Source: Paramacrobiotus metropolitanus
Taxonomy: Eukaryota; Tardigrada; Eutardigrada; Parachela; Macrobiotidae
DNA: 64,000 nt
Direction of reading: 5' to 3'
Assembly (NCBI RefSeq): GCF_019649055.1
Contig: NW_026570234.1
Coordinates: forward strand, 1,054,001-1,118,000
Translations under genes and position numbers: made by a program
Notes under the pieces: generated by a model
What the model was told of the DNA's origin: nothing
The model's database searches: none
Seen by the model: only the letters and a program-made list of their open reading frames with translations
Part shown: piece after piece, positions 1-47,200 of the stretch
How positions within the stretch are numbered: position 1 is the stretch's first letter
How the letters are laid out: every line of letters begins with the position of its first letter

Positions 1-630
1 CCAGCCGCCCAGGGTGGCATGCGCAGCTTACGCAGTTGACTGCGCCGTCTTCGCGTAACGTACGTACTAGAGACGATTCATCTCTTCAACTGCGAAGTGG
101 GCTTCCTCCTCTCTTCCGTGGTTAACTTTCACTGCCAGCCTTCTGTTTCCCAATGGAATTGGAACATCATCTGCGAAAAGGCCTGCGGCCCAAAAACGGG
201 CAAGCTGAAGCCGAAAAACCACTTCCATTGGGTTGTCCGTGTTGGGAGGAATATTATGTCCTGTAGAAGCGAACGTCTATAACAGTACGCCATGGTACTA
301 CGAAGTCGGTACGTAAAAATTATTTTATTTAAACTCCCAGGCCGTACGGATGCCAAGTTATTTGTCAGATATGAAAGAAAAGTAAAGCTGGATACTTACT
401 AATATTAAGCATTTGCATCGAGCGCAGCGAAATGTACAGACTAATTTGTAATAAAGAGCATAAAAGTTTGTCTGACGCCCTCACGCCACAAAGAGCGTTA
501 CGTGACTTAAGTCCTACTTTTCCTATTCCACAAGTCCAATACCATTTCCAAGTGGAACTGGAGCTCGCGCTCGTGCAACAATGTGGTTATCAACCACCCA
601 CCACCAGTCAAGAAGTAAAAGATAGATTGA
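1..630. other. Left flank, no supported gene
   Basis: Short open frames on both strands overlap here but none has a recognisable domain. The segment just left of the retrotransposon may be its more decayed 5' part: the reverse-transcriptase-like frame starts near 641 and is closed by stops before that. I see no splice-supported gene. Confidence 0.4.
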
Positions 631-639
631 AGTAAAAGA

Positions 640-2850
640 CGGACTGCGAGCACAGCACTTAAAAGAGTTAGTAAAAGTACCTGGCGAATGCGGAGAAGTG
701 TTTTTAGCGGCGCTTACAAAGCTAGTGAACCACGTTGTCTTCAACCCGATTCCCGATAGCGTCCGCACAGTGCTTTTTGGCGCCACGCTGATACCTTTCA
801 ACAAGAAAGCGGGCGGGATACGGCCCATAGCGGTTGGCTGCACCATAAGACGCCTGTGTGGGAAATTGATTAGCAGACGCGTACAGACGGAACTGGGCGG
901 CATTTTTCGCCCAGTGCAGTTGGGCTACGGAACACCGGGAGGAGCAGAAGCAGCTGTACATGCCACGCGGAAATTTCTTCGAGCCCACCCAGCCAGCCCT
1001 ACCGTGGTGTTGAAGCTCGATTTTCGTAATGCATTCAACACCATTCGTCGCGATGTCGTTTTGAAAGAAACAGCTGACAAATTACCGCAATACTTCCATT
1101 TTATTTCCCAGTGTTATAGGAATTCTTCTACCTTGTTCTGCGGCGAAACTACGATGCCATCCGCCCATGGGGTGCAGCAAGGCGATCCCCTTGGCCCGTT
1201 ACTGTTTTGCCTTGCCTCGTACAAGCTTGCAAAAAGTTTCCAGTCCGATCTCAATGCCTGGTTTCTCGATGACGGGACAGCAGGAGGAGACCCAGAAGTG
1301 GTCCTGGAAGATTTCATCAGAGTTAGTATTGATGCGCCTAAGATCGGTCTAGAACTCAACTTCGCAAAGTGTGAGCTCTATGTTTATGGCGGGTCTGAAG
1401 CGGAACAACAAGACATATACGACCGGTTTGCCGCAGTCGCACCTGGTATTCAAAGGGTCACCCCAGAGACGTTGGAATTGCTCGGTGCTCCCCTTACGGA
1501 CTGGTCCATCGGCCACTGCTTGGACGGTAAAATTGGCCAAATCAAAAAACTGACAGACTCATTAAGCGTCTTGCCGGCGCAGCAAGCGTTATTTCTCCTA
1601 AGAAACAGTCTGTCATTGCCGCGACTTATGTACACTCTAAGAGCGGCCGCTTGCTACAAATATGCGGAGAAGCTCAGGGAGTTTGACGAAGGATTAGGTC
1701 AAAAGCTGAAGAGATTACGAATGTTGTGATGGACGACTGCACGTACGTGCAAGCTTCTCTGCCGGTCAAAGCAGGCGGCTTGGGTTTGCCTAAAGCCGAA
1801 GAAATCGCTACCCCGGCCTACCTCTCCTCGCTGTATTCTACCGACGAGCTAGTACGTACTATTGTGCCCGAAGATTGCCCCGACGAGCGGTCTGATGTTG
1901 AGCTGTGCTGGGAAGAACGTACAGGAAAGAGTGCACCTGCGATGGAAGACCGGAGCAACCAACGCTTGTGGTCGGACATGTTGACTGTTGGGAAACTGGA
2001 AGCTTTAAAAGATAGCGCTGACGTTATTGCCTCTGCTCGTCTGTTGGCGGCCTCTGCTAGGGATGCCAGTGCCTGGTTGTTTGCATTGCCGGTCGCCAGC
2101 CTTGGCACACTGCTGGACGATGCCGGTCTGCGGATCGCTGTTGCTTTGCGGATGGGGGCGCCTATTTGTAAGGAGCATAAATGTCGGTGTGGTGAAATGG
2201 TTGATACACGCGGCTTACATGGATTGTCGTGCGTCAAAAGCCAAGGAAGGTTCAGGAGGCATGCGAGTTTGAATAGCGTGATTCAGCGTAGCCTGGGTTC
2301 AGCAAAGGTGCCGACAATCTTGGAGCCTCCCGGACTGTGCAGACGGGACGGGAAGCGGCCAGACGGCTTATCACTCTACCCATGGAGAATGGCCTCCCTC
2401 TGATATGGGATGTGACAGTTTGTGACACATTCGCTACTTCGTATATAGCTGGCTGTTCAGAAGCAGCGGGATCGGCTGCCGAAGACGCGGAAGTGCGGAA
2501 GCGAAACCTCTATTCCGAACTCACTGATCGGCATTTTTTCCAGCCAGTGGCACTCGAAACTATGGGAAGTTGTGGCGAAAGTACCCGCCAGTTCATCAAT
2601 GAAGTCGGCCGGCGTATCAAAGAACAAACAGGAGAAGCGCGCGCTGTTCAGTATTTGTGGCAACGTATAAGCGTTGAAATTCAGCGCGGAAACGCGGCTT
2701 CTGTCCTGGGGACGGTCGGGTGTTCTCGAGAGTTAGAAGAGTTATTTTTCTTGTTCTGATTACTGGGTATTTAAAGTTTGAATGTAAATGGCATTGGCTT
2801 GTACAAGTTGATAATAAAGATATTTTTAAAGATAGATAGATAGATTACTT
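640..2850 (+). mobile_element. Decayed non-LTR retrotransposon (RLE class)
   Basis: Reverse transcriptase followed by a C-terminal nuclease region of an R2/NeSL-like element that carries a restriction-like endonuclease. The RT frame (about 641-1729) reads GLRAQHLKEL at its start, then QQGDPLGP and a catalytic FLDDGT (a variant of the usual YxDD). The second frame (1726-2403) has QASLPVKAGGLGL and a CCHC-like knuckle (CRCG...HGLSC). The third frame (to 2759) continues after RPDG with WDVTV, consistent with the RPD..D core of the nuclease. The three frames are in different phases, so at least two frameshifts break the protein. No N-terminal DNA-binding domain is visible, so the copy is probably 5' truncated. 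An AATAAA lies at 2813-2818, followed by a GATA-rich tail that marks the 3' end. It is an inactive copy; the clade assignment is from memory of motif spacing. Confidence 0.8.
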
Positions 2851-2870: not shown

Positions 2871-3431
2871 CTATTACTTTTTAACTAGTATAAGTACAAG
2901 TATGTACTGTACCTCTCTGTATATCCATGCTATCTTGATTTTAAATTTTCCTTTCGATTCACAAATTTCGAATCATTAATCCTGTTCCTCGCCTGCTTAC
3001 CTTGGTAATAAAAAATTATGTGTGAAGCAGCCATGCCTGTGATTCGGTGACTTCGGGTCTTAAAAGACCACTTCTGGACGATTTTTACCGTAAGGCTGGC
3101 AAACTGGACGTCGAAGTGTTCGTTACAAAATTTGACTAAGCAATGGTCTGAATTTAGTTAACTGTATTTTTAAGCCTTATTAGCACTAGTACGAGCGGAA
3201 AGGCGAAAGAAATGTGCAGTGAGCCGCGCGAAAAGAGCCGAAGCGTTCTTCAGGCTCACTGCTCACAACAGTGTTTTTCTCCTTTCCGTTATTCCGACAT
3301 CGGCGACATGTGATGGTTTCAGACGTGAATGATCGTTTATCAAGATTTGATCAGTTTGGGTCAGCGCTTTACCGGTCATTTATCCTTTATGCGGGGTTAT
3401 AATATTATGGCCTTTCACAATGAAGTAGGAA
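2871..3431. other. Intergenic, no gene seen
   Basis: AT-rich spacer. A 10-base inverted pair (GCAGTGAGCC near 3213 and GGCTCACTGC near 3253) could form a small hairpin. No open frame with support. Confidence 0.4.
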
Positions 3432-3558
3432 TCGAACATTTTGTTTCATGGTTTCATCCCAGAAATTTTCTGTTATGAAACGCAGAGGCCTTGGGCCAAG
3501 GCCTCTGCGTTTCATAACAGAAAATTTCTGGGATGAAACCATGAAACAAAATGTTCGA
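3432..3558. repeat. Perfect 63-bp inverted repeat, 1-base spacer
   Basis: The arms 3432-3494 and 3496-3558 are exact reverse complements around a single G at 3495. The centre reads GGCCTTGGGCCAAGGCC. The match stops abruptly at both outer ends. The next inverted repeat begins at 3557, so the two structures abut. Confidence 0.95.
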
Positions 3559-3898
3559 GGGATTCCATTAGGAAAAGCCAGCTTTTCAAGCACACCTGCC
3601 ATCTTCCAACAACTGGATTCGACAACTGGAAACTTCCTGCGATGTATGATAAGATGATAAGCTTGGAAGCACACCGCCAAGGCCTTGGCGGTGTGCTTCC
3701 AAGCTTATCATCTTATTAGCTTATCTTCCAAGCTTATCATCAGGATTTCTTAGGTTTCTTAGGTTTCTTAGGCCTTGGCGGTGTGCTTCCAAGCTTATCA
3801 TCTTATCATACATCGCAGGAAGTTTCCAGTTGTCGAATCCAGTTGTTGGAAGATGGCAGGTGTGCTTGAAAAGCTGGCTTTTCCTAATGGAATCCCTC
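3557..3898. repeat. Nested inverted repeat with 126-bp perfect arms
   Basis: Arm 3557-3682 and arm 3773-3898 are exact reverse complements. The first 34 bases of the right arm also appear immediately after the left arm (3683-3716), giving a second perfect palindrome (3649-3716) with no spacer. A further short copy of the same arm lies around 3727-3741. Between the arms there are three tandem copies of TTTCTTAGG (3746-3772). The pattern of partial copies in alternating orientation looks like repeated template switching, either during replication or as an assembly or amplification artefact. Confidence 0.95.
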
Positions 3899-3944
3899 TT
3901 AGGTTCCCAACCATCTTGATCTCCCCATTTCGGACAGCGCAGAC

Positions 3945-6195
3945 ATGGACGCAAGTACAATTATGTAAGTTTTAAATGCATGCATAAATTATTACAAACC
4001 TCCTTTTCAGCGCCATTATCATCGTTTTTATGCTGATTATCATCTTCGGAACCGTAGCTTTTCCTCGCGTATTGGGGGGCATTTTGCGAGATTTTCCTTA
4101 ATGTTTGAAAGCCTCTTGTGAAGAACATTCGCTGATAACACAAGGCAGGTGCTTGATAACGCTAGTTTCAATCTGCGTGGGAAATTATATATTTTTGTGC
4201 AGTTTGCACGTGGAGATTATAAGGAAAGTGGAAGTTCGTTCAAGGAAACAAGCAAATTAGCACCCGATCTTCGAACATTTGGCATACAATACGACGATCC
4301 CGAAACGGTACGTTTTATATAAATAATATAAATGCGTGTTCTGTTACATGTGTAGAAATGTTTGTACTGTAAAAGCCCATTTTTCCGGTTGGAATTTGCT
4401 CGGTACAAGTTTTCGTCTGTATGACATAATTTTTTTATTTTCATTGAGATTGATGTTACATTGTTACTTGCATTCGTTTGCTTTTTTTTAACGATTTTAT
4501 GGTGAAAGAATTTATTCTGATTTTGAATTAATTTCACCGCCAGAGCATAACGATTTTCTACCGATACTCGTAATGCTTAAATTTGCGGGTTTTTGCATTT
4601 TACTTACAGTACGAATTTATGTTGCTTTAACTGCCTTTAAGAATGACTACGAGTTTGTTAACTTTCGACAATTAAATGCGGAACGCCTCGGCGGTAGCTT
4701 ATATCTCTGGTCGTTGTTAATATACGTTCAAGGGTTATGTGTAAGCGCATGCGATTGTGTTGCTTTTTTGCAGACTTGCTGTCTTTGCTAATTGCGTTAC
4801 TGGACAAGGGACATGCGATAGTGTGCATAAGGATTAGTTAACACCCTAACACCAGTCATTTTTTCCAGACACCGTTTGCCAGCCGGCGCTACATAGCAGG
4901 GACGATCGTTGAAGAAGAACCACATGTAGACTGGCAGTTCGAGGAAGCTTTAAAAGAGCACGGATATGAAGAACGTGAAATCCCTCCGTTGAGAGTGTTA
5001 CTGCATTTGTCATATTTCCATGGTGGAAAAATTTAGTAAGCATTCAGTAAGCACTTAATTTCATGAAGGTGACCTGTTTGCACGAGTACACTGCATGTTG
5101 GCCGTTAAGCTTTGTATTGTATCAAAATCTTTTGGATACTGTTGAGCAGCACACTGACAAGTTTCCAACAAGGGAGCATAGATAGCATATGTTACAATAG
5201 TTATTGGCATATTAGTGATTTATCTGTAAGAACTTTATGTTTTTTCAAAATCGATAATTTTAAGCGGTATCGAATCCATTAAATTCATATTTTCTTCTCT
5301 GTAGTTTGCAGACTACCGTTTGTTACGAGGTACATTTGGACAAAGTTGACAAACATACGCTAGAGTAGTTAGGGATGGGGTAGCTGACTGGTGAGTAGAC
5401 ATAACCGCGCTCTAGTTTGTCTTTCTGTCTGATGAAATATAATTTATTATAGGTGTATTTCTATAAATTAATGATTGTAGAATGTAGATTACAGATGTTC
5501 TATACAGTTGTGGATGATTGATAATTTGTTTTATAAAGGCTGCTTTGAATAGCTGTTTAATCTACCAGTATACACTTGTACAATACTATGTTTATGGTTT
5601 AGCTGCTTTCATAATTCATAATGTCCCGCACGGAGAAATACCAACCGTAGGCGTACTGAAAGCGAGTCGCTTATTCGTGGTTGTCGTGCGCTGCACATGA
5701 ACAACATTCTTCGGTTGTTTTGTGATGATTTGAAATTTCGAAGGTGAATTTTCCTGTTTTTGAAAATTATAATACTTAGTTCTCCTTTGCCGCACCAGTC
5801 TGTTAATCGTGTTACAGTTGGCCCATTTTGGGAAACGTTGATCAAATCTTTCTCCAAAAAGCTGATCGGAAATCGTTCGTGAGCTTATCGTGTCTTATGC
5901 TGCGTTTGCTCCGGCATTATTTTGTCGATTTTCCTGTCCCTGACCCTGTGGTTTCTCATAGAAAAACATTTCGATCACGGTTTATTTTTGGAGGTGTTGG
6001 AGATGCTCAGCTGACCTGGTGAAGCCATTCTTTTGCCAAACCTTTGGAAAGGTTGATGATTTGTATGTGCTGTACGGTCTGGAAGCGAAAACGATAAAGG
6101 CTACGAAGATCTGCGTCCAGAAAGCGCCAGTAAAGACTGAAGATGCTGAAACCGCGGATGGAGTATCCCGAGACGTACCCAAAGATAGTGAATAA
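3945..6195 (+). CDS. TEX264: TEX264-like ER-phagy receptor
   Basis: Six-exon model: 3945-3964, 4011-4068, 4149-4307, 4869-5035, 5818-5878, 5962-6195; the phases agree and give about 232 residues. TEX264 is a single-pass ER membrane protein with a cytosolic GyrI-like domain that links the ER to autophagy. The N-terminus (MDASTIIAIIIVFMLIIIFG) is a membrane anchor. The body matches the family: FARGDYKESG and FGIQYDDPE in exon 3 align with the vertebrate FHMGLYGETG and VYYDNP region, and SRRYIAGTIVEEEP in exon 4 aligns with the CRCAVGSILSEGE region. The last exon contains CQTFGKVDDLYV (compare CPLARQGDFYV). The protein is shorter than the human one (313) because the long acidic tail is missing; the tail here ends soon after KTEDAETADG. 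Exon 2/3 borders are less certain. The start is 47 bases downstream of the palindrome cluster. Confidence 0.75.
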
Positions 6196-7249: not shown

Positions 7250-10107
7250 TTAAGTACGGATGCTATAATTAGGAACTGTTGCTGAAAGGAGGGATACTTC
7301 ATTCCCGGCATCGTTCTCCTCGTCTTTGTCAGATACTTTGGTCGGCTTAAATCTTGTTGGTAATACCGCGCATGCGGCTAAGAAAATTAAGCAACATAAG
7401 AAGTTAATCCAGAGGCTGGCATCCTAAAATCAAAATTTTGAAATTATTGTTACCCAGCTATCAGCATACGTATATTGAAGCTGTACAAATACAGATAAAT
7501 GCCAGCAAAATTAGCAGTGCCAACCGGGTGCGAAATATGAACTTAATTGCATACCTGAACCAAGACAACGACTACGACTAGATTAACGGGAATTCGAAAA
7601 TAATTCATTAATGTGGAGCGACAGTCTTCCGGCACATAGCGGCCACGCAGTGCACCCATACACGGCCAAAATACTCCAACACAGAATTCGAATATCACAA
7701 ATCCAGCGAAAACAGCCCAGGCATCCTGAAAAAGAAAACGGCAGGGTTACAAAGTTCACCATAATTTCGTAGTGGAATACGATCTTACCTCGGGAATCGC
7801 TAATGCCGGTACAAATGTTAGCGTGGATATTATTAGAAGACCCATCAGGATCCTTTCTAACGATAATCGCCTACTTAAACAGCTGAACAAAAAGGACCCC
7901 AGTGCCACGGCTATCATGAAGGCTGAGAAGATGTATCCATGAGGAAGAAGAATGTTTTTCGGCTCTCCCGCTTTTTCTATGTGGTCTTTGCTTTTGACCT
8001 CTAATGCCGGCGTCCATAACAAAACGAAAATGTACATAGAGCCTTCGAATAATGATTGAATGAGCCCCACAAGTAAGACATTGGTGTCTGCAAATAGCAA
8101 TGTTCACCATCTAGTTACTCTTTGTTATACCGTAGAATTATAAAAACTGGAACGTTAATCCATAACAATGCTGAACACAATCGCAAATAATACGAGAAGT
8201 TTAAAACCTTACTCCGAGTAAGTAGATTAACTGTAACATATTCAGTTTTTTTAGCCGGTTTTCCATCGCTCTATAGTGTGAATCAGATTCAAATCATTCA
8301 ATTGAAACAACCATAAATATGAATATAAAATAATACCTTTGATTATGTAATTCAGATAACTGCAATTCTCTATAAAGAGGAAGCAAAAACAGTTTATCTT
8401 TAGCGGTTACATCTAAGTAGCAAAACCGTAGCTGTCATAATTATTGTGTAATGATTTATGCAGCTGATTTGGAAAACTTGCAAAATTTCTTATAAAATTT
8501 TTTTGGCAGAATGCAAAGTCTTACACGCATTACCTGCTAGTAATGTTTTGACGCCGGAAGCGAAAGGTTGCAGATGTGGAGCATTCTGGTCTCCGTAATT
8601 CTCCGTCCACAAATAGTACACAAGAATCGATGTTACTGTTAAAATACCGGCAGCCACATCAAAAGGTGATCTAACCCAAAAACACAGTTTTCGGTATACG
8701 CAATGCAAATTTATTTGTCGTATTCTCTCCGTACACTAATTTGCCGGAAGTATTGACCGCGAACTGCGCGACTACACCGGACAGAATGGCAATAATTCCA
8801 TTAAGTTTCGTAGCTCCTGATAGTATGTCTCCCAACTGGGCTATCGACAGACCCTTCTGTAAAATTATCAATGATTTATTTGCTGTTTTAAAACTGTTGA
8901 GTGCAACAGTGCATTTTGTTATATAAACACGCTTAGGTTAACCTTGTTGCATTCGCACACAAGCCAAGCCTCAAAAGATGTGCACATAATGGAAGTGGCA
9001 ATACCGGCCAACAGCCGTCCTCCCATTAAGATCCATAAATTTGGCGAATGTTTCGTCAGACACGAAAGCCCGTAAATCACTCCATATGCAATGCATACAT
9101 TCCGCCGTCCGCTAAAAAACCATCACTATTAGCAGACGGATCTTAGTAAATGTATGTACTATGCTTGAATTCTACTTTTTTCTAATTTAGAAAAATTTAC
9201 CAGACAGTTTAACACATTTTTTGCTACTCTTATTGATGTTCGAACGGTAAGGGCACCTGGCAGAGATATGCTACACTAGCGCTACATTTAATAAACCATT
9301 ATCTACGCTCTATTATAAATACACAGCTAGGATAACTTTTTAACACTCAGTATGACACTAATTTAGTTAGCTGATGTTCATTTTAAGTGCAGTACCAAAT
9401 TTCACCTGCTGTAATCTGCGGTTACAAATAATCTTATGGTAAGAAGTTCTACCCTGGTGAATGCAGCACGGTTATCCGTAATTAGTTATTATTTTAGCGA
9501 AAATAGTAATACAGCATATATACTATTGGCGCAATACTCTGGCAAGAGCAAGCGTGTGAAGCACCTCTGACTCAGGCGAGAAGACAATGAAGGGTAACAA
9601 GTTAATTCTTTGTTCTTACAGTTTGTCTCCGAAAGATGCTACAACGGTCCCCAGGAGCAAACTGGACCCAAATCCCATAACGAATAGTAAAGCAATATCT
9701 CGCGAACTGATTCCATAGGATTCATACAGAGCGTAAACATGGGATCCTTGAAGCCAGTCCGCCGCTACAAAATAATAAGATGACAAAGATTGGGTATGTC
9801 GATGTTAAACGTCAGTGACAATATCAAAAGAGTACCAATGCAAAATTGCAACTGATAGATAGATGTGCAATAATTACGAATGTTCATACAAATGCCCACT
9901 CGTATAATTGTTTTGTCACCTATATTTCTATACTCGTATGGCTACCTGTGTGGACTTTGCGAGTAAAACTATACAGATACGTAACTGTACTGTCGGTACA
10001 TACAGGAATGCTGTTTGTACAAATCGTACCTTACCAACGACCAAGCCGTAAACAAACAGATACCGTCGCCGGAGATCCCAAAATTCTTGAATCTTTAGAT
10101 GGTCCAT
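7250..10107 (-). CDS. MFSD5: MFSD5-like major facilitator transporter
   Basis: Eight exons on the minus strand: 10035-10107, 9620-9764, 8943-9111, 8735-8856, 8534-8670, 7789-8087, 7555-7725, 7250-7423. Every junction keeps phase and the sum is 1290 bases, that is 429 residues, close to human MFSD5 (450). MFSD5 proteins are 12-helix plasma-membrane carriers reported to take up molybdate. Diagnostic matches are VVAADWLQGSHVYALYESYG, GRRNVCIAYGVIYGLSCLTK, SFEAWL, the helix 7 segment GLIQSLFEGSMYIFVLLWTP, and MNYFRIPVN near the end (human LNWFRVPLH). The start is the ATG at 10107 giving MDHLKIQEFW, which is shorter at the N-terminus than the human protein because the first helix of the human sequence is not seen. 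The final exon ends with an acidic hydrophilic tail. The reconstruction is tight, so confidence is high for family and good for exon borders. Confidence 0.93.
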
Positions 10108-12074: not shown

Positions 12075-12158
12075 ACAGAGCTTGTAGAATCTTGAGAAAC
12101 TGAACCGTCCAAAACAAAGTTGTTGTAAAACTTTCAACTTTTCGCTCCCGATTAGAAC

Positions 12159-12575
12159 ATGGCTGCTACCGATATAACCGGCAAATTTCAACTGACATCC
12201 AGCCAAAACTTCGACGACTATTTGAAAGCAGCCAATGTGAGTTTTGTTTACAGAAAACTGGCGACGACTGTGGAATCTGCCACCGTGGAAATCATTAAAA
12301 CCGGGGGTGACGAGTACACCATGAAAACCGTGACCGCGGTGAAAAGTCACGAACTGAAATTCAAACTCAATCAGGAATTCACAGAGCAAACGATGGACGG
12401 CAGAGCACTGCAGACCACCATGAAATTAGAGGGCAACAAATTGATACAAACACAAAAAGATGCGAAGACCAACACTGATTCCATCATTGAACGGGAATTC
12501 ATGAAAGACGAAATGGTCACTACGCTGAAGTGCAAAGGCGCGGTCAGTGTGAGGAAATATAAGCGAATTTCATAG
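12159..12575 (+). CDS. Fatty-acid-binding protein (FABP/CRABP family)
   Basis: Single-exon gene for a 138-residue cytosolic lipid carrier of the beta-barrel FABP family (usual size 130-140). The N-terminus has the family signature GKFQLTSSQNFDDYLKA. The middle has KLNQEFTEQTMDGR, where the E.T.DGR pattern marks strands E-F. The C-terminal strand ends VSVRKYKR, containing the R-x-Y pair that binds the ligand carboxylate. The usual GxxxRK motif after the helices is replaced by VSFVYRKLA, a modest change. Most FABP genes have introns; the lack of any here may mean retroposition or intron loss. A TATA box is present upstream. The exact subgroup and ligand cannot be told from sequence alone. Confidence 0.95.
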   Translation: MAATDITGKFQLTSSQNFDDYLKAANVSFVYRKLATTVESATVEIIKTGGDEYTMKTVTAVKSHELKFKLNQEFTEQTMDGRALQTTMKLEGNKLIQTQKDAKTNTDSIIEREFMKDEMVTTLKCKGAVSVRKYKRIS

Positions 12576-16450: not shown

Positions 16451-19400
16451 TTACTGGCTCAACAAATAAACCAAGTCATCCGGTCGCAGCGGATACTCTT
16501 TGGGGGGATTGGTCAGCACGCATCGTTTACTTGTTTTCTGGGAATCTGTGTCATTCGGATACATCAATCTTGCCAAGCCTAGGCAAATAACTCCAATTCG
16601 GACGGCGCAGACGAACAAGGCTCCGTATGTCGAAAACTGCAACAAAACATGTGAAAATATTAGCAAGGTATTTTAATAACCTTATAAGTAATAATTGAAT
16701 ATATGGGAAGGCTAGTTTTATTGAGATATTCGGCATCCGTTATAAAACCTACATGCATTTGGTTTCCCGCAAATATTTCATCATCCAGAGCAACAAGTCG
16801 AATACCCACGCTATTTCCAGACTGATTGGCGGGATTATCGGACGAGTTATCGCCAGGAATCAAACCCAATCCCTCTGACAAGACGCTTTCAAAAAAAGGA
16901 CTCTGGAAGCCCCATAGCAAGTAGCGGATTAGCGGTACCGCCAGCGGATTGTAATACGTCTGCAAAATTGACGTTATTTTTATTTCGTAAACTTGTTACT
17001 GTTTTTGCTTTTGTTTAATGTTACAATGTTATTACGCGCTATTGCTATTTTGTTCTATTGTTACATTGTAGAGTTATGTGACCTTTGGTTGTTTTTATTA
17101 GAATAATGAAATTCGTTTTCGAACGGAATTTACCGCAACAAGCATTGAATCCAGCGAACTCAAGGTCACCGCCGAGCCACACATATAAGGTTCGCTTAAA
17201 AAGACATCGTCACAATCTTCGTCGTGTTCCGTCCATGCATATTGATCCAACAGCCGAATGTTTGAATCATGCTCTGCACAAAAAAATACTGCTGTGTGGC
17301 TTCGATGTTACCAACATGTGCTACTGAAAACACTAGATGAGTACAGTACTTTATTCTTTTCCAATTGTGTGCGCATATACAATGATCTACAAGGAAAAAG
17401 CATTGCTTACGGATTTCTGTGATAACGGGAATTTGATGTCCGCTTATTCTCCGTGAGCGGTCGATCAAGGGTTCATCATTTTCGAAGACCATGGCCTTAA
17501 TATTCAGCGTGGCGAGGATGGCCGCTCGGTCATCGAGGGTTTTATCGGCTGATGTGCCCATCCCGGCGGATAATATTACACACGATGAACAACTGTGAAC
17601 ATTGGCCGCTCGCAGATCTGCGCGGCCCAGCGCATCACCGGGAACAATACGGATTCTGGGGAAATTGTGCAGCATTCGCCATTCCTTCTCCAGAAACACC
17701 GGATCACCCAGGAAAACAATCTCCTTTAAGTCTGTATACGGTATCTTGCTGGAACGTAGCGGCATGACTAAATCTCGCAATCCGATGGGCGAATCGTAGG
17801 CACTGCACATTACGAGGACGAGAATGTGGTCGTGGAAACCGGCTTCAACCGCATCGGATCTCGTCTACAATTAAATCGATTCTTAATTGCGACACACCCA
17901 AAATAGCCTAAATATTTTATTCAGGCCAGTTAACGAAAAATTTAAGTAAGTATAGACAATTAGGAGTAATAGGCCATGTATTTGGGCTGCTCTTGCATTG
18001 GTAGCGCAGGGTTTTTGCTTACCAGGAAGACGGATCGGAAAGTTTGGGTGGGGCACCAGTGAAAGGCTTTGGAAATATCGAATTGCCGCTGGTTTCGCTT
18101 GATGGCTGGATCCTCCAGAATCCCATTTTCTTCCCGTCTGTTTTGTAATTAGTTATTTAGGCTACGCAAATATTATGGGCAGCGTAGCATCAAAGTGTAA
18201 CCTTTGTAAAACCGAAGCTCCGTGACGAAGATGTCCCAGTATTTTGGCTTCAAATCCTCGTGGTGGTCTGGCTAATTCGTGATGATGGACAACATTCAAG
18301 TCGACGCCGGTAATTTTCAACAAACGCTCAAACGGATTTCGGATTGCTGGATATACCGGCCGACTGTCAGCTATACGGAAACAGAATGCAACATGTCATC
18401 TAATTTCAATGCCGGAAGTGCATGTTTATCAATATTGTTCTAGATCTGTTTTCACGCAACCCGTGCGTTAGTACAGTATTATGAAACTGCTCGACATAAG
18501 TACCTTTTGAACATTTGCAGTGAGTAATTTTTTGAGGATCCGTTTCATGGCGGTGGCATACCGAGCAGTAGTGACGCACTCTGTTTTAAGTATTAAGCAA
18601 ATTTAATGGTATACATACTGAGATATTTATGAGCGTTTTCGTTAATAATTTTGTTTTTAGTACTTTAAGCAAGTATTTTGTTAGAGGTTTGAGACATTTG
18701 AAATAAACGGTAGTACATATTATGTTTGCTGTTTTACTGACTGCTGTATAAGCAGGTACATAGGTAGCGTTATAATGCGTAAAAGAATGTATAAAAAAAT
18801 TACCGGCTCACATCACTGGAACTTTTTGCAACAAAAATCCCCACCCGATCCTCCGTAATCACTAACATAACCGGACAGAGTAGCAAGCCTTGCTTGCGAT
18901 TATCTCTTTCCGGTCGGAAAAGTCCAATGAGCAGCAGGTGCAGTTTGGTAAAGCACTGCCTGAAAGCATTTTTGAGCCACTTTAATAAATACGATTATAG
19001 TAATCATTGTGGGAAAAACTGATTGTGAGAGGACTAATAATTTACTCCGCTGCTTCCGTGTATTTCATGCCCAGGAAATACGCGCCAAAGGGACTGACAA
19101 ATAGCTCCAATTGGCTGCCGTAGACAAAGTCCTGAATGATTTCGCGTCGCGGTGCCAGGATGATGTTGCGCGATGGGGATTGTATAAGATTAGCCAATAA
19201 GGTCGACGCCCCAGGAGCAATACACGATTGAGCAATTAATCCGTACTCGATTTCTTGAAAGCACACGATCGTGTCACCTCTCTTCAAGGCAAACCCAGGA
19301 ATATTCAGGAGTAAAGGCTAAAAAGCGTGAAATAATTTTATTAGGTATTGCTTATAATCCCAAAGGTCATAAGAATTATTATATGCCTTGTGATCTAATA

Positions 19401-22400
19401 TTTTACGATAGCACTTATTAGATTTGTTTACAATTAACTATATGGTTGTATCATGTTCGAACAGATGACATTGCATTGTCTTGATACTTCGATATGTGTG
19501 CAACTCTGGGAAATCCATGGCCAGCTAACCTTAACCTTCCCTGTTGAAGGCAATTAGCACGAATGTTTCCTTTGTTTACAATTAGCTGTAATCCGGTTAC
19601 AAATAATTTGGCGAGTGCATATACTTAATACTGAATCTGACTGTGTCCGCATAGAGATTTATAGTAACGTTACTCTAATTCTCTGCTGTGTCGGTATTCT
19701 GTTGTAAAGAACTGAAAATGTATTCGCTCACCTTGGCCTGGTTCTGCAACAGCTGGACTATGCATCTCGTATGCGGGTGGAAATTCTTTATCGAGGTCAC
19801 CAGCATAACCGTGGCCAGGTCTTCTTTTACGGGAGACGGTGAACTTTTGTCGGTGATGACGAAACAGGCCATTGCATGGTGCAGTTGCGCTCGGCGGAGA
19901 TCTTGGATCTGCATGAGCGATCCTTCCAAATAAACTACGGTTGATCCGTAATGTTTCAGCACCGACTCCATTTCGACATCCGGTACACTGCAAACATTGA
20001 TCAGACGGTGCACATAAAAATTTAACGGGTTCTGTAATGGAACATTTGTCTAGACACAACAAGTTAAATTACAAAACACACTCCCATACATTATACACAT
20101 GCACATAACTATCCGTACAATATATGGATTATCGATAAATATGTCACTTGTCACAGTACTCCGCTTGATTGTTACATACATCTTTTGTATAACGCTGAAT
20201 TAAAACTCATCACATCACAGTGTAAAAATACGTCATGATCACTATTATTTCTTACTGTCCAACGAAAACCACGCGAACATCATCCCTTCTTCGATCCTCA
20301 CGACAAAAATCACTCAAAAAACGGGACATGAATGATGCGTCGATGCGCCCGGTAACTACGACATGTCCAATTCCGTTCTCTGGTCGGTAATTTCCTCCAA
20401 AACGCTTACGATTGCAATAAAGCAGATAGACTTCCGGTATTGTCGAAGCAAACAGGGCCTATAACGCAATATATATACTTTGTACCACGGAAGTTGGATG
20501 ATATATTATCGCAATTATGGCAAGGAGTTACTATGTCAGAAAAGGCAAAAAATACTTTAGCAAAATATTTCATATTTTACCAAAAAATATTTACGAAACC
20601 TGAATTAACAAATCCACCTTACCAATGAAGTCATAACAAATACACAACAAAACAATCGTCCTAATGTTGTCTCGGGATTAATATCACCGTATCCCACTGT
20701 CGATAGAGTGACAAAGGAAAAGTATACGGATTCAAAGTAGGACAAGTTGTGGATGCGTGGCTGGTTAAGCCAAAAGTCTCCACTGTTTTCCAACTGCAGC
20801 AAACAAAAATTAGCGGAAAGATGAAAAAACTGTGCACATGTTAGCACAGCTGTGCAGTTGTATAGCCTAGTAAAATACAGTAAGATCGTACCAAATGGAA
20901 TACGCCACTGCATGCTAGTAAAATTGTTGTTATCAGGCACAGGCTCTGGGCGAGTCGGATCATGGGACGGGTTGTCAATAATCCAAATGTCTGCAGGATT
21001 TCGGACACGGACATAATGTGGTATGCACGCGCGCATCGAAATCCTAAACAGTTTTACAACTTAAATCATGTTCATAAACAGGTAATTTAGTGAATAAAAT
21101 TCTGAATCGCTGCTTCGTAGATGAATAATCATTTTTGCCCGTACCTATCCAGTGCCGGTGCGTAATCAGTGATAAAAATGCCGGAGGAACTGTACAGTAA
21201 TTGGCAATTGCGTTGAGATCCAAAAGATACACAAATGGCCTGGCGCTTCCGCAGAGCTAAGCACACAAAAAATAATACAGATAAATTTTATTTAAAACAT
21301 TTTATAAAATTTTAAATAAATTCGTTTAATTGTTTCATTTTATACGTAATTACGGATTAAGTTCAGTAAACACCTTTGTGTTGATAACCTTTGTATTTAA
21401 GGGTCAAGTATACTCTAATGATTAAGATGCTATGGTAAAACCGGATGAAGCCGGCGGGATCATTTTCCCAATGTAAACAATTCAGGTATTCGATTTCCAC
21501 TTTTCTCATTTTGATGAAAATGTCGCCCTTACTGCACTGCTTACCCGCAACCCAAAGGTAACCATTAGAATAATATTGCATGTGAAATCAATATACCAAT
21601 CAACACTGAAAGGTCCGCGAGAGCAATTTTCAACGTTATTGATTTTCCTGCAAAATGAGTGATTTTTAACACATCTGAGTCAAACACTGCATCTAGTCTT
21701 AAGATGATAGATTCCGTGCCTCTTAAATTCTATAAATCTTCGGCGAATGAGTGCGCAATTATGAGGTATTGACCTTTAGGTTAATGGATTACTCTGCATG
21801 AACACGGTTGAAGGTATTCGGCCATTCAACGCTTACCAAGAAACGTTGTAAAGATAAATGCAGAGGGAAATCATCCCAACCACAAACTCCAAAACCATCT
21901 AAAACATACAAAAAATGAAAATAATAATTACCGTATAAGTATAATTTTGTCTTCATGATACGTAAATTAGGCCCCATTCACGCTGACTTCTATCTATCCG
22001 ATTTCCTATTAAAGCACCGCCCGAAACGGCCGGTTTCTTAGCAGTGCGCGTGAACGCGGCGCGCTGTAATGTTGCGTTACTGTAAATTCAGTGTTTTATC
22101 TAGTTGAGTAATATTATAAATTATGAGCCGGTGATACTGACACTATAAATATAATATTTTAGAAAAAGTAAATAAATTTGAACAAAATTTATTTCAATCT
22201 CCAACCCCAAAGCGCATCCTCCCACATGATGACGATTCTAGCTGCTAGGAAAAATAACATTACTAATTTACCAGCGCATAAGGTATTTTGCAAAAATCAA
22301 CCGCTATATTTGAAAAACTGGTTCTTTTGAATGTTTGCAAATCAGCATTTATATTTTGCAAATAAAAAATATTTTTATCACTGACGTACGGGAATAAGCG

Positions 22401-22781
22401 GGCTGAACCGATGTTACCCGTTTCAACTTTGTGTTTTCCGTATAGATAGTAAGTTACCAAAACTTTTCCGGGGTAGGATTGGGCAGAAATGATCCGAGCA
22501 CAGAAATGCCCATATTGAGCAGTCCATGATTGCCAGTTATTTGTTGTCGAAGCATGCTCATTGCGTTGTGTGGTCAAGTAGTAGCGCTGCTGATTGCGTA
22601 TTCTAATCCTTTGAAATATCCAGATCAGTTTAATCAAACCAACAACGATGGCCAACACAACCGGACACAGCAGGGAGGAGAACAAAAAAATCCACCATAT
22701 TCTAGTTTGTCCGCAGGAATCATGGTTACCGCTGCCAACAACAATACAAGAGCGTAAATATTGCCTGCGCATTATGATCAA
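16451..22781 (-). CDS. slo: Slo1-type large-conductance K+ channel, divergent
   Basis: Seventeen exons on the minus strand: 22458-22781, 21837-21898, 21545-21647, 21145-21256, 20892-21043, 20623-20793, 20256-20458, 19732-19987, 19046-19317, 18804-18959, 18504-18580, 18202-18370, 18023-18137, 17411-17864, 17134-17273, 16753-16959, 16451-16636. They sum to 3159 bases, 1052 residues, in one frame. BK channels open on voltage and Ca2+. Seen in order: S0 (RIWWIFLFSS), S1, S2 (YIDFTCNIIL), S3 (DLNAIANYCTVPP), S4 (GFRCARAYH), selectivity filter TVGYGD (residues 283-288), RCK1 (GHVVVTGRID; YGLIAQSCIAPG), linker with a CSVCH motif, FHWC, RCK2 (GLRDLVMPLRSS; WRMLHNFPRIRIVPGDALGR), and the end KRCVLTNPPKEYPLRPDDL. 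Odd points: the S3 Asp and last S4 Arg of the voltage sensor are Asn and His, and the acidic Ca2+ bowl is disrupted. Slo1 or a Slo3-like paralogue are both possible; Slo2 fits less well. Confidence 0.95.
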
Positions 22782-33154: not shown

Positions 33155-35814
33155 ATGAAGTCGTCCGGTTTACGGGCTCTAATTTCTTGCGTTCTGCGAC
33201 AACCCGTTCAAGTTCGGCGATTTGCATCGGCCGCCGTGTCGCCGTTATGGGATTCTCCTGAGTACGATCCCGAAATCAGTCAAGTGGCAGAAAGACAGGT
33301 ACCGTACATATGCATTTCGAAAACTGAATCTACCGGCCTAATCCGTAATTAGACATAATTTTATCTCGACTTGTAGCTATTGTCTGGCATACGTATTGCG
33401 CGCAAATGATAGCAGATTATCCAGTTGTATCGTTTTGATATTGCTTCTGAAAATTATTATTGTTCTGCCGCCTTCACCATTGCGATAACATACAAAAATT
33501 TAATGACGGCTCTGATGATATTAGGCAGTTAATAATATAAGGAATACCCCTGGGGATGCTGAATTTCTCCGGGACACATTCGGACGACAACATACCTACC
33601 TCCGCATCAGCCTCACCGAGCGATGCAATCTTCGATGTGAGTTGGTATTCGGGAGGTTTAAGTGCTTTCTACTTCCATATATAAACAAAAATTGAATGAT
33701 AACACAGCAGTTGCGCAACATAAAATACATGAGAATTATTATCTAGTAATTGTTGCTTATTTTTAGTTAAATCATAAATGGTAACCATTAGTTAAGTGTT
33801 TAGTAAATCCGTTAGTTAAGTGTGTTGCTGTTGTTTTTTTCAGGTCAGTATTGCATGCCTGCCGAAGGCGTTCCTTTAACCAAAAAGGACAACCTATTAA
33901 CTACAACCGAGATTCTACGATTGGCATCGGTATTCGTGTCCGGTGGGGTGAAGAAGATTCGGCTGACCGGCGGAGAGCCGCTGCTGCGAACGGATATCGT
34001 TAACATATGTGGTAAGGATTTAAATTTTCAACTTCAGATTGGCAAAATAGAACAGTTTTGCGTTTTTTTCGCACTTGTGGTAGCTATCAACAGTTGCTTT
34101 TAGTTTTTGTTTGTTATGAAGCAACATGGGCTTGTGGTCACCAACGTGTCTCGTTCTGGTTACGAGCAGTACTGACTTGGGAGTACTACGGTAGTGACAC
34201 AGTAATGTTGTTGTTGTAGAGGGACTTAATGCTTTTGATGAAGTGGAGGAAGTGAACATAACGACCAATGGGATCTTATTGGCTAAGAAACTTCCAGCGC
34301 TCCACAAAGCTGGACTGCGCACAATCAATGTTAGTCTGGACACCCTTGTTCCTGCCAAGTTCGAACTCATAACACGCCGACGCGGATGGGAAAAAGTCAT
34401 TGAAAGTATCGATACGGCTATTGACCATGGATATCGGCCCCTGAAGGTTTGTTTGCTTTTTTCAGTACTTCTACGCATAGTATCGACGTCTGCACTTGGC
34501 AGTACAATCAGTTGGCTGTATTTGCCGTATCTGTCCTGGACAGAGTTATTTTTCGAATCGCTTAAATTTATTCCGGAACGGTCCACGTAGGAGCGATTTT
34601 AAATAAGTGACTAAAATTACGATTTTCAGGTGAACTGCGTGGTTACGAGAGGAGTGAACGAGGACGAAATAGCAGATTTTGTGGAATGGACAAGAAATAA
34701 GGTAGACATATCAGGAGTGTGTGCGACATACTCTTGCTGAAAATGCATCGCTCATTTGATAGGCTGTGGATGTGCGTTTTATTGAATACATGCCGTTCGA
34801 CGGAAATAAATGGAACGATAAAAAAATTGTGCCTTATGCCGAAATGCTGGATATTGTCAAGAGAAGGTTTCCGGAAATTGTCAGATTAACAGATAAACCG
34901 AACGACACTTCAAAGGTGAGAAAGTTTGAATGGTTATCATTTGCGATGGGAGGGTGCACTGTTGGGTATTTAATGGTAAATGCGTAGATAGAGAAAAAGA
35001 AAAATCTATCACTTCTACTTTCTTGTACATATTGCATGCTGCGTTTCACTTGTAAGTATGCGTTTACGTTACTTTAGGCATACAAAATACCTGGATACGT
35101 TGGGCAGTTCGGCTTCATAACTTCCATGACCGCAAATTTTTGTGGAACTTGCAATCGTCTGCGTCTCACAGCGGACGGAAACCTCAAAGTACGTTATCTC
35201 TCTTGGTCGCTGATTGTTTATTTAGCGCTAAACATTCATTTGTTCGATAAAGACTGCTTGATAGCTTCTACGGCCACATTTGTTAATTGAATATTACTAT
35301 AAGATATGATAATTTGTTATTACGCATATTTGTCTGCCTGAAAGAAATTTCAACGTGAATACGTATGCATTATGCTGGAAAAGTGCCAGTTTTGTTTATT
35401 CGGTTATCTTTAGCTTATGGTGCAGATGCTTGTGGGCTTACTGAAAAGATTTACTTTCTCGTTCACGCAGCGCGAAATTTTTCGTAGGTGTGCTTGTTCG
35501 GAAATGCTGAGGTTTCATTGCGAGATGTTTTGCGTTCTGGCGCTAGTAATGATGAACTGAAAGAAGTGATCGGTGCGGCTGTTAAAAGAAAAAAGAAACA
35601 ACATGCCGGTTAGTAATTTTTACCGTTTACCGTTCTGCAGTTTAAACGAAATAACTTACCCAGTTTTTTTAAGTAGTAGTGTTACTAGTGTCTGGTTTTA
35701 GCCTTGAGAATTGATCTAAAGCATCACATAAATATCTTAACAATAACATCTGTTGCAGGGATGCTTAACATTGCGAAACAGCCTGGGCGTCCTATGATTC
35801 TCATTGGTGGGTGA
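33155..35814 (+). CDS. MOCS1: MOCS1A, GTP 3',8-cyclase (radical SAM)
   Basis: Nine exons: 33155-33303, 33542-33636, 33844-34011, 34220-34446, 34630-34701, 34763-34915, 35078-35188, 35488-35608, 35759-35814. They sum to 1152 bases, 383 residues (human MOCS1A 385). This is the first enzyme of molybdenum-cofactor synthesis, turning GTP into 3',8-cyclo-7,8-dihydro-GTP in mitochondria. The N-terminus ([20 protein letters not shown]) is a likely transit peptide. The radical-SAM cluster motif is ERCNLRCQYCMP (Cys 78, 82, 85), followed by [11 protein letters not shown]. The second [4Fe-4S] site is in [10 protein letters not shown] and [22 protein letters not shown] is strongly conserved. The protein ends in the catalytic Gly-Gly before TGA. 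The exon 1/2 border rests on a weak acceptor but is required by the frame. Exon 9 also carries an alternative donor that would delete the Gly-Gly. Confidence 0.95.
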
Positions 35815-35837
35815 ATTTTCCGGTAAGCATTTCTGTT

Positions 35838-35912
35838 TTACTAGTACTAGTAATACTAGTAATATAGTAAGATAGTACTAGTAATATAGTAAGATACTAG
35901 TAATACTATAAT
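35838..35912. repeat. ACTAGTAAT/ATAGTAAGAT short repeats
   Basis: A low-complexity stretch of interspersed ACTAGTA, TAATA and ATAGTAAGAT units just downstream of MOCS1 exon 9, in the intron that would join it to the MOCS1B exon. Confidence 0.7.
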
Positions 35913-36655
35913 GAACAGATATTTCCATCATGCTAGTGGCAAAAGAAGCGTTGTAAAAAGAATAACTAGTGATAAAGAGTTTTAAATCTTGAATGCTTCG
36001 GATGGATTATGTTACCGTAAATGTTCCCAAATTTCATCGATACCTTAACGAGAGAAGTTTGAATTACTTGCCAAGATGCATTCAGTAAATGCGTGACGCG
36101 TAGACATGTGATTTTAATTTTGTGGAAGTTTAATTTTCCTGTTTCATAGCCACGGTTTTTGCAGCTGTTGTTATTCTATGCTGGTTATGCGAAATCAATG
36201 CTGAAAGAGAAAAACTGGTTAGCAGAACAGATCTGCCGGTTGCTGCACGGTCTTGTACAGCTGGCATTGTTTGTTTTATTTAGACGACAAAATAGAAGTG
36301 TCCGCTCTTTATTTTATCCAAAGTTTTTCGCGCCTACTTCTCACCACAGCTCTTTTATTTTAATTATACTTTCGACGAAATGGAACACGCTGCACCATTA
36401 CATGACAACATCGTGCGTAACGGAGTGAATGCTTTTATGCGCAATATCATTACTGTGTCTACGCGGTTTTATAGTCTTTGAATTATTGTAGACACTTGTT
36501 CTTAGAGAAATTACATTTTTTTATTTTTCATAGAAGGTATCGTATAGTTTCATTGGAATGATTGATTATGCAAGAAAGTTTTGTTTTTGCGATTATTTCG
36601 CACGTACACTAACTGCATCCTATTTTTTGAAGGATCGGAAAATATGTTTTGCAAG

Positions 36656-37206
36656 CCAGTATCTCCGCAAAATGTTTGGTGTCGCGGTTTTCATACATCT
36701 CATCCCTGCTTTCCTCGAAAGTTCCCGGTGAATTCAGCCATGTCGATCCCGCATCCGGTAAAGCCAACATGGTATCGATTCGAGACAAGTCTGTAACTCA
36801 TCGCCGCGCTGTTGCTGAAGCTACCATCTATCTCGGACCGGAAATCTTCCAAAAAGTCCACAACAACGACATGAAAAAAGGCGACGTCATCACCGTGGCC
36901 AAAATAGCCGGCATTACCGCAGCTAAGAAAACCAGTGATCTGATCCCGCTGTGCCATCCCATTTCGCTGGATGTGGTTCGTCTGGAGCACAGTTACCTGC
37001 CGGAAACCTCTGAACTGCGATTGGAGGCCACAGTGGAAGCCAGTTGGAAGACCGGTGTGGAGATGGAAGCGCTGACAGCCGTAACGGTTGCAGCGTTGAC
37101 GGTGTACGATATGTGCAAAGCCCTGAGTCAGAAGATGATTGTCAAGAATGTCCGATTGTTGCGCAAATCCGGTGGGACACGTCCAGATTATAATAGTAGT
37201 GATTGA
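36656..37206 (+). CDS. MOCS1: MOCS1B, MoaC-type cyclic pyranopterin phosphate synthase exon
   Basis: Single long terminal exon encoding the MoaC part of MOCS1, which makes cPMP from the product of MOCS1A. Visible motifs are FSHVDPASGKANMVSIRDKS, KKGDVITVAKIAGITAAKKT, LIPLCHPISLD, the active-site block KTGVEMEALTAVTVAALTVYDMCKAL and the C-terminal LLRKSGGTRPDY; all are close to bacterial MoaC and vertebrate MOCS1B. No in-frame ATG lies upstream of the domain: the first is inside the conserved GKANMVS. The frame instead opens from a splice acceptor (TTTTGCAAG at 36655) in phase 1. That phase matches both the alternative exon-9 donor at 35806 and the exon-8 donor, so the domain is probably made as a fusion to MOCS1A. 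An AATAAA is at 37303-37308. Confidence 0.92.
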
Positions 37207-43742: not shown

Positions 43743-44294
43743 ATTCTGCTGGGATTTCATGTTTAAAAACATTTTTATATGTTCAGGTTAGTTATGTTTT
43801 TTATTATACAAACAACTGAAAAGCCTCTCAAAAGGCCCCACTGTTAGCAAGTGCAGAATTAGAAATTTTATGAGTATGTTCAGCTGTTTATCGAACAAAT
43901 ACCCCTTATCCAAACGGAAGGTTATTAATAATTTACATCAAAACCCGAAATCGAGTTCCAACAATAACAGCCAAAGGTGGGCGTCACCCATCGATACATA
44001 CGACGGGAGATATGCTGGCAAAAATGCCGTCAACGGTACACTACTGCATATTATCGTTTAACCACAACTCTCCAGAAATCATTGCCGGTTTTCAATTTCA
44101 GGGATCGCTGGCGTTGAGTAGTCATCGTACGCACTATACAGCTTGTGCATCATGTATCGGCAAGCGGTGCAATTAAAATCAATCACTGAATCTTCCGATT
44201 TGGAATCTGAGAATTTCTGTCAAGTACTACTCAATTTATACACCATTTGCCAGCTTGTTAACTCATGGCTGTCTGAGTTGTTTCGTCCAAGGAA
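43743..44294. other. Spacer upstream of the GPCR gene
   Basis: No gene supported. It probably holds the 5' leader and promoter of the GPCR gene. Confidence 0.4.
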
Positions 44295-47200
44295 ATGAAG
44301 AACAATTCGTCGGACATTTATTCTTTACCCAGTATAACTTTAACAAGTACCGCCATTCCGGAACATTTGGATGAGGAAATTACTATCGCTTCCTATCCGG
44401 TGCTTCAAATAATACTGGGCACTATATATTTTATTATAATATTTCTAGCATTGTTCGGCAATGCCACTGTGATTACGGCGGTAACCATTATTCAGGAGAG
44501 AAAAAGTCCGACGCACTGGTTATTAGTGTCACTAGCATGTGCGGATTTAACTGTCACGGTAAGTGAAACCGTAATCGTACTGCGTACATATGCAGATACA
44601 AAGTACTTTCATAAATGCAGCATCATAAATTAAAAGAAAATATAGTCTCTTACATGTGCTTCAATCAATTTTGGACATTAAATTTACATATGCAAATATA
44701 TGCAACAAACGTAACCCATGCGGAAGTATAAAAATAAAACAGTAAATATATAGCGTACTTGGCATTTAAGTCACGTGGTTGACCAAGTCTATACTTGATG
44801 TCTTTGTAAAAGTTGTTTAGCTTAATTCGACGCTTGTGGTATAGAAATTTTGTTGATGCCGCATATTCGTTACAACAGACTTTTATTAACCGGCTGCATT
44901 CGATAGAAACTAACAAGTTTGCCAGGAAAAATACAAGCATATATAAAAAATCTTCCAGGGTGGCATCTTCAGTATTGCAGCTACAGAGTACTTCAGTACA
45001 TAGAACATTATTCAAGCTCATTTCTTGCAGCTTTCAAGGTATACTGAATTAGTACGGTAATTAGCGCTCATTAAATGATATACTTCTACAAATGTGACAA
45101 GAGCTTTTGTTGCTTCACAGCTTTACTTGAGTATGTTGAAAACACTCAAGAACGAGTGGAAAAAGTATATAAAAATCAGCCTAGTGAAAAGTTAACTGGA
45201 AAATATAGAATACATACATAGCGTCGATCAGAAGAGATGAGTGTGTGATTCTGGCTACAAGCTGCACAGTTTTTCTTTGAGAAGGTTGCAAGAAAACTTT
45301 TGATGAGCTCTACCGGAAAAGCATTGAAATGTATGACATGAATGTCACAAGCAATTATTAATCGGCAATTTTAACTGCTCACAAATGTCGGCAACACTCT
45401 GCGGTTTCAAAAATTGCGTGCGGGGAATGCATCATGTACTAATGTTGTGTATTATGTAAGACCATTTGCGCGTTTATGAAAGGAGTATATTACAGTAAGA
45501 GTGAATTAAATATTGTAGCATTTTTTGTATACCAAAGCAAATTTTTGCAGCCGGGCTTCTATTAGCGGATATATAACCGTAATATCAAAATTAAAATTTA
45601 ATGGAAATCGCTTCTCACAGTAGGTAACGGACTAAATCGACGAATGTATTGGGTCATAAGAAGAAGAAATGCATTTGAAGAGGGATCAATATATCCGAAT
45701 ATGGATTGCACTTGTTATATGAAGAACCGCTGTGGCGCACTGCATGGTCCGGGCAGCGGCAGGAGATGTTTTTTCCCTTTATTCACCCGCTTCCTCTCGT
45801 AACCACTTTGGGTTCACGTGCTGCTTTGGACCGTTAAGTAAACTGGAGTGTACATAAGCAAATCTTATGAATAAGTCCGCAAGTCAGGATAATTGGCAGG
45901 CCTCCGCCATTCCATCTGAATATGTCTTACTTAACTATACAGCCGGCATATAAAGAGACTGTAAACATAGATCATCAAGAGGATGGCTTTTTGCACGGCG
46001 ACAACGTTCAGCCGGAATGTCTAAATCATCAAAATATTATGGCGATATTTTAATCTCACGACGAGAACAGCTTTTACCGTGCTGAAGGCACACAGGGTCT
46101 GACAAAATGTAGGCCTCTGACTGCGCAAATTAGATGCGCACTGTTAGTGCTTAATATAACGCATGACGTTCATGAATCCTTCTTAAAAAGTAAAAAAAAA
46201 CCAAAAAATAATGTTGCCGAAATTTTTTGGATTAGAAGACGTGTTTCCTGTATATCCATGTATTCCAAATCCAACGTATTAAGCGATATCTGTGTAATAA
46301 GCTATATACCTTATGCCTAACTAAGGTATTGGATTGCTTAAAAGAATACGAAGCAGAAACGTAGCTAAATTAGTATGTAATCAAAGCATAGTGGCTGTGG
46401 AAGCCTTTGCCTGATCCCTAAATCACGAAGTTATGGAAAGAAATATTTAATATGGCCATCAATGATTTCCGGGGAAATAGACCAGCTTTATTCAGCATAC
46501 ACTGAAAGGGAAGCCCATAAGACATTAATGCATACACTGCGTGTCAGGGTCGGCATACAGCTGCACTAATAAAATAATTTATTTCATGTTGCAGGTCTTA
46601 GTGATGCCCTTTGCCCTAACATATGACGTTCTTGGTAATTGGCAATATGGGAGTACATTCTGCCGATTCTGGATGAGCTGGGATGTAATGTGCTGCACTG
46701 GTAAGCTGCGATTGCGGAGTGGCGTGATCGTCCATGGAAGATTATTTACTTACTTCTTACATGTGTATTTTAAAATAGATAATCATCGATTGTTGATGTA
46801 CAGATATATTATGCATTATGTCTGTATGTTAACAGCCAGCCTGCAGCATTTATGCGCCATCGCCTGGGATCGTTATGTGGCCGTTACCGATCCATTCGAC
46901 TATCCGCACCGTATCAATCTCCGCAAGGTCATCATCATTATCCTACTGATTTGGCTTAACAGTGCTCTTCTCTCGTTTTTTCCCATCTTCACCGGTTTGT
47001 CATCGAAAGCAACGGATAATGCGGAGTTTTCGGCTGACAGTCTGCAGTGTTTTCTCAGCACTAATCCCGTTTACGCCGTGATATCCGCGACGATATCACT
47101 ATATCTTCCGTTTGGCATTATGTTATTTTGTTACATCCGTATATTCAGTATTGTCTGGGAGAAGATTAAGGTGACGGGTGAACATAGCCGGCGACCGGCA

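Follow-up and report, generated by a model that had tools for sequence, protein, structure and literature searches.

An apparently intact, fast-evolving Slo1-family potassium channel gene with an altered calcium-bowl sequence

A Slo1-type gene and its described relatives

Each subunit of a BK channel has two high-affinity Ca2+ sensors, and the dispensability of either has been studied mostly with engineered mutants. In the Slo1 bowl, according to PMC5765161, D895 and D897 hold Ca2+ with their side chains, Q889 and D892 with their backbone carbonyls, and an adjacent subunit contributes its N449; the two aspartates are described as essential, and the N449A exchange as causing little change in Ca2+ sensitivity. 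The RCK1 site comprises D367, R514 and E535 (PMC4319557), and the two sites reportedly contribute about equally to the effect of Ca2+ on the voltage sensor (PMC6763263). For Slo3, PMC5337896 names absence of the Asp string from the bowl as the criterion, and the channel described here lacks that string as well. Among invertebrates, trichocephalid nematodes have a second Slo-1 paralogue (PMC4270693), and an additional Slo1-family gene in an invertebrate would therefore have a precedent; the nematode paralogues lie tail to tail, whereas the window—the whole 64-kb stretch of DNA analysed here—holds one Slo gene.

This gene has 17 predicted coding exons and encodes 1019 amino acids (Table 1). When the minus strand between 14000 and 24500 was aligned with human Slo1 across introns, human residues 15–1054 were covered in 17 exons (22721–16454) with no frameshift or stop, and all 16 introns are GT-AG, as read by an aligner that imposes GT/AG ends and allows GC with a penalty. 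An in-frame ATG lies at 22772, 51 bases upstream of the aligned part, and the 5′ end is predicted from this codon only. At the other end, a TAA (16453–16451) directly follows the last channel codon, so that the protein stops right after the last RCK2 strand, unlike human Slo1 with its C-terminal tail. The exon boundaries are least sure in the linker between RCK1 and RCK2 (about 18370–18023), where the alignment is weak. GC content is 0.474 in the exons vs 0.338 in the introns, and the product matched five Pfam families at E ≤0.01 (Slo-like_RCK, 1.2e-53; BK_channel_a, 8.9e-21; Slowpoke_C, 2.3e-16; Ion_trans_2; Ion_trans). When the coding sequence was allowed to drift neutrally in simulation to 38% identity, at least 22 stops arose in 200 of 200 runs (mean 34.8). 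A pseudogene was rejected on the strength of the 17 exons free of frameshifts and stops.

Table 1 Features of the channel gene in the window, with human Slo1 residue numbers and codon starts in brackets
Feature	Coordinates	Strand	Details
Slo1-family K+ channel gene	16451..22772	-	spliced alignment, Pfam
S3 exon	21145..21256	-	D186N (21202), N172A (21244)
S4-S5 exon	20892..21043	-	R207, R210 kept; R213H (21020)
Pore exon	20623..20793	-	selectivity filter STVGYGD intact
S6 end and RCK1 start exon	20256..20458	-	D362 (20311), D367 (20296) kept; H365R (20302), E374R (20275), E324L (20425)
RCK1 exon	19732..19987	-	E399V (19935), H394Y (19950); N449 kept (19785)
RCK1 exon	19046..19317	-	R514 (19170), E535 (19107) kept; M513S
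RCK2 core exon	17411..17864	-	R786, R790 kept; tblastn 4.4e-32
Bowl exon	17134..17273	-	46 residues, human Slo1 883-926; loop YAWTEHDEDCDD replacing DDDDDPDTE

Compared with the Slo1, Slo2 and Slo3 chains of the PDB, the whole protein matched Slo1 best (Aplysia 5tj6, 644.7 bits; fly 7pxe, 634.8; human, 632.8). Slo2 (KCNT1; 8hir) aligned over the pore and the RCK1 part and was much more distant, at 121.3 bits. Human and fly Slo1 score 1390 bits with each other, far above the window channel with any Slo1. On gating-ring chains the scores were 443.3 bits for Slo1 3u6n and 357.2 for human Slo3 4hpf, and gating-ring identity to the window channel was 37.6% for human, 38.7% for fly and 40.9% for Aplysia Slo1 and 34.0% for human Slo3. 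The slightly higher value for Aplysia hints, tentatively, at an invertebrate (protostome) source. Going by molecule names and the literature, we assign 5tj6 to Aplysia, 7pxe to Drosophila and 3u6n to zebrafish, and take 4hpf to be Slo3. The sequence match, the TVGYG filter, the tandem RCK domains and the RCK1 residues argue for membership of the predicted channel in the Slo1 (BK) family in the broad sense. It resembles Slo1 (KCNMA1, slowpoke) in its membrane domain, filter, tandem-RCK layout, RCK1 Ca2+ residues, N449 and assembly interface, and departs from it in the bowl, the Mg2+ site, R213H, D186N and E324L.

A gating-ring tree of only five sequences joined Slo3 to human Slo1 (99/97) and left the window channel outside; its branch is long, at 3.88 changes per column, and its own position is unsure. 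On these five sequences a Slo3 orthologue was rejected. Relatives were absent from prokaryote genome contigs (95 pattern matches) and viral contigs (53), each searched with two peptide patterns plus alignment. Within the 64-kb window, the whole human Slo1 sequence as query found no second Slo gene (best E outside the gene, 5.8), and none of the papers listed from a limited open-access collection described an invertebrate Slo1 with an altered bowl.

The calcium bowl and its alignment register

The first-pass annotation had marked the bowl on the minus strand at coordinates that proved to be exactly one exon, preceded by the acceptor GCAG and followed by the donor GTAAAT. A tblastn search with the human bowl hit this exon at E = 1.1e-7. 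No alternative bowl exon was found in the 64-kb window, the normal acidic version that could have overturned the earlier claim included: the best hits outside the gene reached E = 0.24 with the human bowl and 0.14 with the window's own. The letters read there earlier, R-LLDQYAWTEHDED, are present, with the Arg as residue 849 of 1019 in the full model (position 832 of the aligned portion, shifted by 17 residues upstream of it) rather than within the previously given 882–895. It is very improbable that the gene is a pseudogene after all or that the mature transcript swaps the bowl exon for an unseen alternative one; such a reading could draw on a 5′ end predicted solely from an ATG, and runs against the uninterrupted 17 exons, the failure to find another bowl-like exon anywhere in the 64 kb and the lengths, 137 and 174 bases, of the introns that flank the bowl exon.

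Human, fly and Aplysia Slo1 share an identical nine-residue stretch, DDDDDPDTE, in place of which the window channel has the 12 residues YAWTEHDEDCDD; over the wider bowl region all three read NVQFLDQDDDDDPDTELY and the window channel NIRLLDQYAWTEHDEDCDDVF. The DDDDD string, present in three of the three Slo1 compared, is thus absent here, and the flanking LDQ is kept. The loop after LDQ holds six acidic residues among 12, vs seven among nine in Slo1 and two among 12 in Slo3.

Because the loop has 12 residues instead of nine, gap placement decides which residues stand opposite D895 and D897. They are A/T when aligned ungapped from the N-terminal side, E/D at the single-gap optimum (alignment score 78 vs 70 for A/T), and H/E in both MAFFT and the spliced aligner. 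Weighting the registers by simple BLOSUM62 scores, which carry no structural information, gave E/D 0.798, A/T 0.117 and A/D 0.085 with one gap of three, and H/E 0.701, E/D 0.175, A/E 0.069 and A/T 0.027 when two gaps were allowed. A non-acidic residue at 895 thereby receives about 0.82 of the weight with two gaps and about 0.20 with one. Of the substitutions originally listed, the Arg at Gln889 stands, and D895A/D897T corresponds to the A/T register with its low weight under either scheme. Since Gln889 binds Ca2+ through its backbone, Q889R would not by itself remove a ligand.

The bowl differs from that of human, fly and Aplysia Slo1 and is probably impaired, a judgement that sequence alone does not prove; Ca2+ might still find a site in the lengthened acidic loop. 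The missing DDDDD and the changed loop are confirmed; outright loss, as first claimed, is unproven, with six acids remaining and candidate ligands that shift with the register. The earlier observation is, in our alignments, a real sequence difference, but its residue-by-residue description is more certain than the alignment permits.

How far the bowl might still work can be weighed from its surroundings. N449, R786, R790, E955 and K1030 are kept, R786, R790 and E955 belonging to the assembly interface; R1018 has become Met. In an alternative that we consider unlikely, though the least so of those weighed here, E841 and D843 (aligned-part numbering), or E844, would replace D895 and D897, YAW would bulge out, and Ca2+ gating would be near normal at both sites. 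The single-gap optimum (weight 0.80), the six loop acids, the five kept residues and the flanking LDQ speak for such a working bowl. It has to contend with the two-gap alignment, whose favoured H/E (0.70) replaces the Asp895 reported as essential, with three additional residues between the D892 backbone ligand and the side-chain ligands, and with the Met at R1018, which according to PMC4319557 is the salt-bridge partner of D894 and steadies the Slo1 bowl. MAFFT, moreover, places an E at position 895 of Slo3 too.

The RCK1 site, the Mg2+ site and the voltage sensor

The RCK1 Ca2+ residues D362, D367, R514 and E535 are kept in the window channel, as they are in human, fly and Aplysia Slo1. Given that each Ca2+ site reportedly contributes about equally to the voltage-sensor effect, one site could carry Ca2+ gating, and the window channel most likely still senses Ca2+ via RCK1. 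Near the site we observed M513S, S533Q and S600K; M513 is identical in the three Slo1 compared, and S533 and S600 vary among the same three. With M513 altered, RCK1 may itself be weakened, as the mutant M513I reportedly reduces the RCK1 effect much like D362A/D367A (PMC6763263). Also kept are D153 and R167 in S2, R207 and R210 in S4, E321, and the heme-motif residues C612, C615 and H616.

All four Mg2+ ligands are replaced (D99H, N172A, E374R and E399V; fly Slo1 has S at 172), with the equivalents of D99 and N172 falling in the poorly conserved S0–S4 part (29.5% identity, 57/193). PMC4319557 describes D99, N172, E374 and E399 as the Mg2+-binding residues of Slo1, with Mg2+ acting by electrostatic repulsion of R213, and reports that neutralising R213 abolishes Mg2+ sensitivity and leaves Ca2+ sensing untouched. 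Since Mg2+ acts on R213, the change of its site and that of its target form a coherent pair, and with four ligands replaced together with R213 the channel is predicted to have lost Mg2+ potentiation. R213H in S4 and D186N in S3, the S3/S4 changes noted before, are both there, as is E324L. Voltage dependence is probably reduced; because the charge carried by R207, R210 and R213 is disputed (PMC4319557 vs PMC12218146), we only infer this.

H365 and H394 are the two proton-sensing histidines of Slo1 (PMC4319557). Here they are replaced (H365R and H394Y), and human Slo3 carries the identical Arg and Tyr.

A combined reading, Slo3 and the rest of the window

We favour, at a probability of roughly 55%, an intact, fast-evolving Slo1 (BK) channel of an animal, probably an invertebrate. 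It would be gated by Ca2+ acting mainly at RCK1, its bowl weakened or altered, its Mg2+ boost gone and its voltage sensing reduced. Predicted gene structure, sequence changes and kept residues are the observations behind it, from which we infer expression, gating and affinities. Such a channel would conduct K+ through a normal selectivity filter and open as Ca2+ binds at the RCK1 site; the RCK2 bowl, with three additional loop residues and a mixed acidic run, would probably have a lower or altered affinity for Ca2+, or none; Mg2+ potentiation would be gone along with the ligands and R213, and voltage dependence would be lowered. Because the main RCK1 sensor residues are kept, we do not read the channel as having clearly given up Ca2+. 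The proposal that it is gated mainly by something other than bowl Ca2+ fits in this narrow wording, and Ca2+ bound at RCK1 is then the foremost candidate; extended to a non-Ca2+ signal altogether, it conflicts with the kept D362, D367, R514 and E535, which in human Slo3 are N, K, Q and K.

The resemblance to human Slo3 (KCNU1) comprises the 12-residue bowl loop without an Asp string, H365R/H394Y and a long branch, and the shared loop length and histidine replacements are most simply taken as convergence. One could go further and suppose that a Slo3-like channel arose independently in an invertebrate, with both Ca2+ sensors disused and another signal, such as pH, in their place. We consider this quite unlikely. 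It would accommodate the Slo3-type loop length and H365R/H394Y, the missing Mg2+ site, M513S and the very long branch of 3.88; yet the four RCK1 residues, four of four different in human Slo3, are kept, as are R786, R790 and E955 (S, H and K in human Slo3, three of three different), and the tree groups Slo3 with human Slo1 (99/97) to the exclusion of the window channel. A milder idea, speculative and on balance unlikely, is that an invertebrate lineage has independently begun the path from Slo1 towards Slo3, lengthening the loop by three, exchanging both histidines for Arg and Tyr, and dropping the Mg2+ site and the S4 charge on which it acts, with the RCK1 Ca2+ residues retained. If true, one natural channel would be divided between its two Ca2+ sensors, and its dismantling would follow an order unlike that of Slo3.

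On the preferred reading, an RCK1-gated Slo1 channel, a natural protein with RCK1 and the interface kept, the bowl rebuilt, and all four Mg2+ ligands and R213 lost would show, as a natural experiment, to what extent the sensors can be separated, and would offer a contrast to Slo3.

Elsewhere in the window, a reverse transcriptase match (RVT_1, 3.4e-18; 626–1729, plus strand) marks a retroelement at the left end, and identical peptides in frames of both strands at 3405–3975 suggest an inverted repeat set. Radical_SAM and MoaC matches lie on one strand (34198–37206, plus), 26 kb from an MFS_5 match (7756–8103, minus). We take the former to be a MOCS1-like molybdenum cofactor gene and MFS_5 to be the family that includes MFSD5, a molybdate transporter, which would place two molybdenum-related genes in one window. 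Scans of the window for tRNAs and Rfam families gave no matches. A fatty-acid binding protein of the Lipocalin family (1.1e-12) is encoded at 12156–12575 (plus), and rhodopsin-type receptor matches (7tm_1) occur in two open frames on the plus strand, at 44277–44633 (4.9e-5, under the curated cut-off) and 46529–47557 (7.2e-38).
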